IMG/VR virus record: IMGVR_UViG_3300025929_000033
Span: 1 to 38,155 of that record
Length of the DNA: 38,155 nucleotides
Direction: 5' to 3' (one strand)
Source: a virus
The notes under the pieces were generated by a model, which worked only from the letters and a program-made list of their open reading frames with translations, had not been told where the DNA came from and did not search any database. Below are positions 2,970 to 22,269 of the stretch, in pieces. Position 1 is the stretch's first letter. Each line of letters begins with the position of its first letter. The position numbers were made by a program, and so were the translations under genes.

Positions 2970-3550
2970 CTCTAGATGCCAAACGCCTCCAGACACGCCT
3001 TGGCGTCGCTGCTGACGGCATTATCGGCGCTGGCACACTCACGGCGCTGTTCAAGGCCTTTGGCGCTCCTGACGAACGTGCGCGGGAACTAGGCTTATCT
3101 GCCAACGTCCATTTCCGCACCTACGGCATTCTCGACACTGGCCTGCGCCTGGCTCACTTCATGGGACAGTGCGCGCACGAGTCGGGCGGCTTTCGTTACA
3201 TGGAAGAGATCGCCAGCGGTCAGGCCTATGAAGGACGCAAAGACCTTGGCAACGTCGTTCCTGGCGATGGCAAGCGATATAAGGGTCGTGGTCCGATTCA
3301 GCTAACAGGGCGCGCAAACTATCGTGCATTCGGACGAGAGGTCGGCATCGACTTCGAATCGCACCCGGAGATCGTCGCTTTCCCATCTATCGGGCTTATG
3401 GCGGCTGTTCGCTACTGGAATAGCCGGAACCTGAATGCCTTGGCTGATGCTGACGACTTGATTGGCATTACGCGGAAGATCAACGGCGGAACGAATGGTC
3501 TTGAAGATCGCAAGGCGCAGACGGCTAAGGCGAAAGGGTTGATTCTATGA
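2966..3550 (+). CDS. Endolysin, GH19 chitinase/lysozyme-like
   Basis: 194 residues from a GTG start overlapping the previous stop. The first ~30 residues (LDAKRLQTRLGVAADGIIGAGTLTALF) resemble a short peptidoglycan-binding repeat. The catalytic domain follows, with AHFMGQCAHESGGF at about residues 61-74 carrying the expected catalytic glutamate in HES, then YKGRGPIQLTGRANY and the GITRKINGG motif near the C-terminus. These are hallmarks of phage GH19-family endolysins that cut the glycan backbone of peptidoglycan. No signal peptide is present, so release depends on the upstream holin candidates. The spanin genes follow at once. Confidence 0.9.
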   Translation: MTLDAKRLQTRLGVAADGIIGAGTLTALFKAFGAPDERARELGLSANVHFRTYGILDTGLRLAHFMGQCAHESGGFRYMEEIASGQAYEGRKDLGNVVPGDGKRYKGRGPIQLTGRANYRAFGREVGIDFESHPEIVAFPSIGLMAAVRYWNSRNLNALADADDLIGITRKINGGTNGLEDRKAQTAKAKGLIL

Positions 3551-21497: not shown

Positions 21498-21641
21498 ATT
21501 GAGCCGCTCCCTAGTTGGGCCTGCTACATCGAGATGACGGGGTTCCTAGGCCAAGTCACGATGATGCGGTGATGGTGCAATCCCATCATGTCGGCAGAAA
21601 TTCAAGCCCGCCAATGTCCTTGCGATGTTGGCGGGGTTTTT
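21498..21641 (+). ncRNA. Candidate structured small RNA B, ~144 nt
   Basis: Fills the start of a 492-base stretch with no convincing gene before 21981. Visible pairing: GCCG (21503-21506) with CGGC (21592-21595); TGATGG (21570-21575) with CCATCA (21583-21588); and the terminator stem. Its 5' portion (GAGCC...CCTAG...GGG) weakly resembles RNA A. An open frame from 21588 crosses it, but that peptide is C/G/R-rich and unlike the real protein downstream. Boundaries come from a weak promoter and a strong terminator. Confidence 0.4.
21607..21641 (+). terminator. Terminator of candidate RNA B
   Basis: CCCGCCAA (21607-21614) with TTGGCGGG (21628-21635), 13-base loop, then GTTTTT. The loop and right arm contain the -35 of the next promoter (TTGCGA). 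Confidence 0.8.
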
Positions 21642-21648
21642 GTATGGT
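21620..21648 (+). promoter_or_regulatory. Promoter embedded in a terminator hairpin, for candidate RNA C
   Basis: TTGCGA (21620-21625) lies in the terminator loop, and TATGGT (21643-21648) follows the T-run, with an exact 17-base spacer. The -10 equals that of the main leftward promoter. Confidence 0.55.
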
Positions 21649-21652
21649 GTGG

Positions 21653-21811
21653 GTGCGAGCGGCGTGGAAAGCAGACACGCAGAAACCCTCCTGACAGGCA
21701 GTCCCATGCCTACCGCAGAGTCAGGGGGCGGGTGAATGGGACAGCCGGATTAGCGCCCGGCCTCGCACACAGCCCGCCCTTTGGCCTTGCGCCTGGGGCG
21801 GGTTTCGTGTT
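21653..21811 (+). ncRNA. Candidate multi-helix small RNA C, ~160 nt
   Basis: The best RNA candidate. A closing helix GTGCGAG (21653-21659) / CTCGCAC (21762-21768) encloses three further helices: GCGTG (21662-21666)/CACGC (21676-21680); nine pairs 21687-21695/21720-21728 (core CCTGAC/GTCAGG) stacked on hairpin AGGCA (21696-21700)/TGCCT (21707-21711); and GCCGG (21744-21748)/CCGGC (21757-21761), which abuts the closing helix. A terminator follows after four bases. The promoter's predicted start falls on the closing helix. Every helix is perfect apart from one G-U pair. Function and family are unknown; it is not a tRNA. Confidence 0.55.
21773..21811 (+). terminator. Terminator of candidate RNA C
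   Basis: CCCGCCC (21773-21779) with GGGCGGG (21796-21802); the loop has an inner GGC/GCC stem. It is followed by TTTCGTGTTTT. Confidence 0.75.
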
Positions 21812-21818
21812 TTATGGT
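21787..21818 (+). promoter_or_regulatory. Weak promoter-like element for candidate RNA D
   Basis: TTGCGC (21787-21792) in the terminator loop and TATGGT (21813-21818) after the T-run repeat the arrangement at 21620-21648, but the spacer is 20 bases, longer than sigma-70 normally uses. RNA D may therefore come from read-through. Confidence 0.3.
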
Positions 21819-21824
21819 CATGGT

Positions 21825-21911
21825 TCTAGCCGAACTGAGGTGGCTCGCCACTGCCGGGGATGCCCGCTCGATAACTCCACCAGCGTTCTCTCCATCCGCT
21901 GGTGGGGTTTC
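21825..21911 (+). ncRNA. Candidate small RNA D with an anti-ribosome-site loop
   Basis: About 87 bases with hairpin CGGG-GATG-CCCG and a final nine-pair terminator hairpin whose 11-base loop is TTCTCTCCATC (21886-21896). This loop is the exact complement of GATGGAGAGAA. With flanking bases, 21884-21897 complements 14 bases of the leftward gene leader at 9123-9136, and 13 bases of the leader at 19990-20002. An alternative pairing of CTGAGGTGG with CCACCAG could act as an anti-terminator. It may be a separate RNA or a leader of the gene at 21981. Confidence 0.45.
21877..21911 (+). terminator. Terminator with C/U-rich loop
   Basis: CCACCAGCG (21877-21885) pairs perfectly with CGCTGGTGG (21897-21905), followed by GGTTTCTT. 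The T-run is interrupted by one C. Confidence 0.75.
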
Positions 21912-21980
21912 TTGCGTTTGGGGCGCAACCGACAGGCCAGCAACGCGTTACCCCGTCTCCACCCATTCGGAGACATGGCC

Positions 21981-22208
21981 ATGTCTAAAGAACCCACCTA
22001 TGAAGACGCCAAGGAAATCGTTGACAAGCACGATGAGGCGGTAAATCCCAAGGGTCTGCGCCGGGAGACGAACCAGGCTTCTGGCGTCGTCATGAAGTCC
22101 AATCCCGTCGATCCGTCGATCCTGACCTACGACCCCAAGGATGTCGAATACGATGAGGAAGTCCGTAAGCAAGCCGAGAAGGCCCGCAAGGACGAAGACA
22201 AGAAGTAA
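21981..22208 (+). CDS. 75-residue charged hypothetical protein
   Basis: MSKEPTYEDAKEIVDKHDEA then VNPKGLRRETNQASGVVMKS and a charged tail (QAEKARKDEDKK). I use ATG 21981, eight bases after CGGAG; ATG 21975 is too close. The frame is open back to 21588 but that part covers the RNA candidates. The protein is soluble and likely partly disordered. It ends before a terminator. Confidence 0.65.
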   Translation: MSKEPTYEDAKEIVDKHDEAVNPKGLRRETNQASGVVMKSNPVDPSILTYDPKDVEYDEEVRKQAEKARKDEDKK

Positions 22209-22231
22209 CCGGCGCGTATTGCCGCGATTGG

Positions 22232-22259
22232 CCCGTCACTTGAGTGTGGCGGGTCTTTT
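22232..22259 (+). terminator. Rho-independent terminator
   Basis: CCCGTCAC (22232-22239) with GTGGCGGG (22246-22253), one G-U pair, six-base loop TTGAGT, then TCTTTT. Confidence 0.8.
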
Positions 22260-22269
22260 GCGTTATGGT
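22240..22269 (+). promoter_or_regulatory. Promoter embedded in a terminator, for the packaging/structural genes
   Basis: TTGAGT forms the loop of the preceding terminator hairpin and TATGGT (22264-22269) follows the T-run with an 18-base spacer. It lies 25 bases before the gene at 22294 and could drive the large terminase and head genes. Confidence 0.5.

Follow-up and report, generated by a model that had tools for sequence, protein, structure and literature searches.

A family of compact phage RNAs with a nearly constant frame of tRNA-like proportions around a hypervariable middle

A short region starting at position 21653 of the IMG/VR virus record IMGVR_UViG_3300025929_000033 raises the question of whether it encodes an RNA in its own right, and if so, what kind of RNA. 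The stretch of DNA analysed comprises positions 1 to 38,155 of the record (38,155 nucleotides) and is referred to as the window; loci and contigs in the comparison carry L numbers. The terminase of this 38-kb record is closest to those of the viral contigs L002-L005 (70-82% identity in the best segment), while the nearest named relatives by terminase are phages of Microcystis, Rhizobium, Sulfitobacter, and Paracoccus (52-56%). That the region is a genuine RNA gene with a compact fold, and a member of a widespread family, is near certain; the mechanism of the RNA is what we infer. The best explanation as a whole, to which we give a probability of about 0.8, is a stable, trans-acting non-coding phage RNA of a family absent from Rfam 15.

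The RNA and the signals bordering it are made up of the following parts:

21620-21648, + strand: promoter-like site TTGCGA-17 nt-TATGGT, identified from the sequence; overlaps the upstream terminator, predicted start inside P1
21653-21768, + strand: whole RNA, in the order P1-P2-V-P3-P1', the window member of the family
21653-21659, + strand: P1 5' strand GTGCGAG, pairs with CTCGCAC at 21762-21768 (exactly 7 bp)
21660-21661, + strand: linker of 2 nt, CG (CG in 110 of 112 members)
21662-21680, + strand: P2 hairpin GCGUG-GAAAGCAGA-CACGC, near-invariant and family-defining
21681-21743, + strand: V, the hypervariable insert, 63 nt in the window; the same V elsewhere only in L221
21686-21728, + strand: compound arm in V, CCCUCCUGAC (21686-21695) pairing with GUCAGGGGG (21720-21728)
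21696-21711, + strand: inner hairpin of the compound arm, AGGCA-GUCCCA-UGCCU, from folding
21736-21742, + strand: AUGGGAC strand adjoining P3, predicted pseudoknot with GUCCCAU at 21701-21707 (the inner hairpin loop plus one base)
21744-21761, + strand: P3 hairpin GCCGG-AUUAGCGC-CCGGC, no spacer to P1'; U and GCG of the loop invariant
21762-21768, + strand: P1' CTCGCAC, 3' strand of the closing helix, supported by the covariation of P1
21771-21815, + strand: intrinsic terminator with a GC-rich stem and an imperfect U-tract, identified from the sequence; at the homologous place in L086

The first-pass annotation had described a seven-pair closing helix round three arms, and this is what is found, with P1 enclosing P2, the compound arm, and P3. 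The placement of P3 in the window comes from comparative data; the 3' arm of the minimum free energy fold is slightly wrong. The window is more stable than shuffled sequence, but the single-sequence z is only -2.4 for the RNA with its terminator and -2.9 without it (4 of 200 shuffles equally good), which is what could be said for a chance fold round a terminator. That explanation is already refuted: independent members, over 100 of them, show compensatory changes.

These members were found by searching the whole records of relatives with the window RNA. Two homologues were located at other genomic places, one with 70% identity across the greater part of the RNA and one with only the two ends conserved, and from this pattern of fixed ends and a variable middle, DNA patterns for the ends were made. 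In IMG/VR the exact P2 pattern is found in at least 120 stretches. A P2 sub-pattern gave 15 stretches, nine of them among the 120, from which the number of IMG/VR elements with the exact P2 core is extrapolated to about 200. Patterns for P3 gave 16 and 81 stretches, partly overlapping and many with a diverged P2. Because retrieval relied mostly on exact patterns, some of the P2 sequence conservation is built in, and the family size is a lower bound. GTDB genomes yielded 67 stretches, a number of which fail the P1/P3 test and some of which are probably chance matches; the E. coli genomes searched gave no matches. Only ten INPHARED records matched (eight Pseudomonas and two Ochrobactrum), six under no annotated feature and four overlapping a hypothetical ORF, and a DNA search of the window region against INPHARED gave nothing. 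A pattern demanding the window's own loop spacing had no matches. The family occurs also in a few genomes outside Proteobacteria, and three contigs (L124, L352, and L356) have two copies each.

The members share one layout: a P1 of 7 bp of any sequence, the CG linker, a near-invariant P2 (GCGUG-GAANGCAGA-CACGC), V, and a P3 with a 5-bp stem and the loop NNUNGCGN that directly abuts P1'. All of this is present at 21653-21768. Of the 127 unique P2 matches, 112 have a closing helix that is in register, has at least five pairs, and directly encloses P3, and the spacer between P3 and P1' is zero in 111 of 112 members. For P1 itself, 133 independent members were picked by P2 and P3 only, leaving P1 out of the selection. 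All seven P1 pairs form in 118 of them; positions 2-7 are paired in 125-133 of the 133, against 51-86 expected by permutation, and pairing drops off beyond position 7. Every P1 position varies, with compensation. When 55 distinct cores were aligned, 12 of the 17 pairs had changed on both sides while 99.1% remained paired, and the covariation score of P1 and P3 was 0.546, compared with 0.110+/-0.010 for shuffled alignments (0/500) and 0.04-0.08 when slid. The P2 stem is invariant in this test because the pattern demanded it (in the trimmed alignment the letter N of the P2 loop was written as A). Members retrieved through P3, however, have compensated P2 stems (GCGGG/CCCGC, GCGCU/AGCGC, and GCGUU/AACGC) and P2 loops of 8-12 nt. 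All five pairs of P3 vary, while its loop keeps U and GCG, the GCG being part of the anchor used in member selection. The covariation across relatives is very strong, and a discrete, structured phage RNA, as first proposed, has come through the checks of fold, covariation, Rfam matches, and protein frame.

Covarying stems and hypervariable centers are also known from recombination sites such as attC. The family might accordingly be read as a DNA-level element that works as a folded single strand in recombination, replication, or packaging, the more so since its genomic position varies and the window and L221 show it to be mobile between phages. This is highly improbable. P1 contains 25 G-U pairs but three A-C mismatches, meaning that the given strand folds as RNA and that folding is strand-specific. 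A subset of members has a promoter at a fixed distance, the members in tRNA arrays are co-directional with the tRNAs, and a single-copy chromosomal form lies beside ordinary genes; these, too, speak against such a DNA element.

An ORF at 21588-22208 stays open across the RNA region of the window, so a coding explanation had to be considered. Where L002 and L003 have the homologous locus, the frame of the conserved protein is interrupted by a stop codon immediately before the equivalent of 21975, and the insert lengths across the family vary irrespective of reading frame. The coding explanation was rejected on these grounds; the longer ORF is only apparent, and no protein frame is conserved through the RNA region. 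The small conserved protein itself (21975-22208, 77 aa, function unknown) lies upstream of the terminase and is also present in L002 and L003.

When it comes to the promoter and the terminator, the initial claims hold, with corrections of detail. A sigma70-like site (TTGCGA at 21620-21625 and TATGGT at 21643-21648) does end four nt before P1, as a private promoter with a start on the closing helix would have it, but it is weak compared with the consensus, and a scan demanding 9 of 12 consensus positions found no promoter at the window element. A terminator does follow directly, but after two nt instead of four and with the imperfect U-tract. Promoter-like sites are found at the equivalent position in L086 (TTGTCA-N18-TATAGT), L087, L212, L214, L216, and L118. 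With the distance to P1 held fixed, 13 of 121 phage members have a sigma70-like promoter, against 2 in shifted controls, and TANNNT hexamers occur 4-8 nt before P1 in 22 cases where about 4 were expected. Averaging over all members gave no general upstream consensus, and the subset emerged only from the fixed-spacing test. Most members are without a recognizable private promoter and terminator, and having both is a trait of only a subset. For the window RNA, transcription would begin from its own promoter, on P1, and end at its own terminator.

The surroundings of the window element form a run of short cassettes (21607-21641, 21771-21815, 21873-21915, and 22230-22260), each ending in a terminator; three of them are closely followed by a TATGGT or ATGGT hexamer. 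Synteny as followed through the terminase and the 54-aa and 77-aa neighbors shows that the window's intergenic spot is not conserved, and other short non-coding cassettes are found there in L002, L083, and L085. The terminator of the window's first cassette is shared with L085 at 97%, and the cassettes that L083 and L085 carry there are different ones.

The flanking genes include terminases, endolysins, integrases, helicases, and so on, and a scan of 116 flanking ORFs revealed no gene family in common. Genes for tRNA occur in nine of 112 contexts, and in eight of the nine every tRNA is co-directional with the RNA; the elements of L111 and L127 are located in tRNA arrays, each 2 nt away from a tRNA. 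Many members lie 20-60 nt upstream of an ORF. This proximity would suit a cis-acting leader with riboswitch-like control of the next gene, the promoter and terminator then serving attenuation, and some riboswitches do combine conserved loops with a variable insert. We consider such a leader unlikely, as the flanking ORFs are without a common gene family, some members lie inside tRNA arrays or adjoin genes on the opposite strand, and the window member runs into a terminator and then a stretch with no convincing gene. That the 116 flanking ORFs have no common neighbor gene is instead an argument for action in trans, which is the probable mode of action of this RNA. A member in L161 is followed just downstream by the Rfam Proteo-phage-1 RNA (RF03044, at L161:4030-4108).

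The middle of the RNA behaves quite differently from the ends. V is mostly 44-180 nt long across the family, and in 112 members it falls into about 93 clusters without detectable mutual similarity, the largest with 10 members, so that a nearly constant tRNA-shaped frame surrounds a middle differing almost completely between phages. The 3' end of V pairs within V above shuffles with z = 7; an earlier version of this test, using a wide tail, was weak, and it was the sharper version that gave this value. In at least 16 members the pairing partner is in a predicted hairpin loop. Comparison of the members shows V to be a separately folded domain whose 3' end pairs with sequence within it, for several members as a predicted pseudoknot. 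V varies yet stays folded, as expected of a part under recurrent selection. Some V domains look tRNA-derived, judging from sequence: L184 and L190 each have a match to the Rfam tRNA model, above its cut-off, within V, and a T-arm motif is found in 4 of 133 V domains, against 0.4 expected, with none on the opposite strand. The window and L221 have an identical V while the flanks of the two loci differ, which shows that phages have recently exchanged the element as a whole.

The nearly identical stretch that L221 shares with positions 21505-21560 is located upstream of the RNA in the window and downstream of it in L221. It was considered as a second conserved RNA element and rejected, as it reads more like the remnant of a small-protein gene (LLHR-D/E-DG...).

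A V that changes while the frame stays is also what one would see if the targets differed, and the RNA could then be an antisense-type sRNA in which V pairs with host or phage messages and the frame merely stabilizes it. This seems doubtful, since V is folded with its 3' end paired inside V, some V domains contain tRNA-like sequence, no long single-stranded seed is evident, and a pseudoknot in the chromosomal form covaries.

This chromosomal form was recognized in about 26 genome matches, from Reyranella, Enhydrobacter, and Rhodospirillales and Hyphomicrobiales MAGs (loci L233, L248, L263, L265, and L286 are among them). It has a conserved P1 (CTCGCGG), the P3 loop AGUGGCG, and a conserved V. 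Its pseudoknot, GGCCAU/AUGGCC, displays compensated changes and is the equivalent of the one predicted for the window. The chromosomal form is a single-copy gene. About 29 of the 76 genomes searched in the order to which Enhydrobacter and Reyranella belong have it, and a sample drawn from the whole class has hardly any (3 full matches in 385). In some genomes it adjoins putative trehalose-synthesis genes, as judged by eye. It looks like a domesticated phage RNA, and transfer in the reverse direction is possible.

What kind of RNA the frame represents may be approached through its proportions. A 7-bp outer helix, a 2-nt linker, a hairpin, an insert, and a 5-bp hairpin with no spacer resemble a tRNA, and the helix and linker lengths 7, 2, 5, and 0 match the tRNA acceptor/T-arm frame exactly. 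The family differs from tRNA in being without a CCA end (absent from the family tail profile) and an anticodon arm, and in a P3 loop of 8 nt that is not UUCRANY. ARAGORN predicts no tRNA in the window, and the Rfam tRNA model has no match to the window frame at E<=10. A true tRNA identity was therefore rejected, the model match, the T-loop consensus, and CCA all being absent under strict tests. On balance we nevertheless lean towards a tRNA-like frame, a reading that rests on helix lengths and context. With these proportions P1 (7 bp) and P3 (5 bp) could stack end to end as acceptor and T arm do in tRNA, P2 would occupy the place of the D arm after the 2-nt linker, and the RNA might be seen by tRNA-processing enzymes, which fits its location in tRNA arrays. 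It would be stable and could be cut from longer transcripts, for instance those of tRNA arrays, in the way a tRNA is.

Known tRNA mimics with an inserted domain are tmRNA and the bacterial Y RNA YrlA. They resemble the present family in having a tRNA-like frame round another folded domain, but the family is without a match at Rfam cut-offs, has no CCA, and has other conserved loop sequences. The models for tmRNA, C4 antisense RNA, and other phage RNAs in Rfam did not match the window or the member loci, and rsr, the gene for the partner of YrlA, was not among the listed families of the flanking ORFs. Skipping-rope RNA (RF02924) is associated with phages and has conserved parts separated by a stretch that is not conserved. 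The present family has the same traits, and this RNA was suspected and then excluded, as none of 28 member records matched at E<=1. It is one of the ncRNAs that have been annotated in phages (PMC8501573).

The nearest analogy, without kinship, is with GOLLD and ROOL, structured RNAs of phages and prophages whose function is unknown and which are often found near tRNA islands (PMC12286853). GOLLD has a conserved and a less conserved region, sometimes with tRNAs in the linker, and many members are >800 nt (PMC12286853). Our family is likewise phage-borne and structured, with conserved and variable parts and an occasional location in tRNA arrays. It is, however, about 100-240 nt long while GOLLD and ROOL are large, and at gathering cut-offs the GOLLD and ROOL models match neither the window nor any of 36 member loci. 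At the same cut-offs, none of the 4227 Rfam 15 models matches the frame in these loci, and at E<=10 the window has only sub-threshold, chance-level matches. Within the searchable literature, neither the sequence nor a comparable description turned up, and a published but uncatalogued description could exist. The family is carried by hundreds of environmental phages and was previously uncatalogued. A structured RNA family in hundreds of phage contigs and one alphaproteobacterial order has apparently escaped cataloguing, perhaps because of its hypervariable center and because E. coli genomes seemingly have no members.

The P2 and P3 loops are conserved over phages of distant hosts, which argues for a broadly conserved partner; these invariant loops may dock together, or a bacterial factor that is itself widely conserved may bind them. 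Precedents exist for RNA antitoxins as well as for RNA anti-CRISPRs. A frame that binds one specific toxin or nuclease would fit a phage-borne RNA with a broad host range and near-invariant P2 and P3 loops, but neither a toxin nor a known defense gene was repeatedly adjacent in a PADLOC and Pfam scan of the 116 flanking ORFs, and we regard an antitoxin or anti-defense RNA of this type as improbable.

The reading we favor is a trans-acting RNA in which a tRNA-like frame would stabilize V and present it to host enzymes. V would then be the part that does the work and is rapidly exchanged, perhaps as a decoy, tRNA-derived or pseudoknotted, for host RNA-handling or defense enzymes. That V is a decoy or a cargo is put forward tentatively, and equally speculative is the wider picture of a tRNA-shaped case with exchangeable contents, in which a constant frame would bind a host factor and carry pseudoknots or captured tRNA remnants as V, phages would swap V in an arms race against RNA-targeting defenses, and one bacterial lineage would have domesticated a copy as a chromosomal gene. 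A constant frame with a variable domain is the layout expected of counter-defense. The frame can also serve directly as a search model and as bait in finding the host factor, and since isolated Pseudomonas phages carry members, the RNA is testable in laboratory strains.

Two loci display further tRNA-related features. In L356 (3140-3720) the two copies are placed about 380 nt apart and have the same long P1 flanks, different inserts, and a degenerate P2; one of the two inserts holds a tRNA T-arm. In L085, positions 3260-3330 are non-coding, lie between terminators, and hold GCAGGATTTGAACC, a sequence that resembles a reverse-complemented tRNA T arm.
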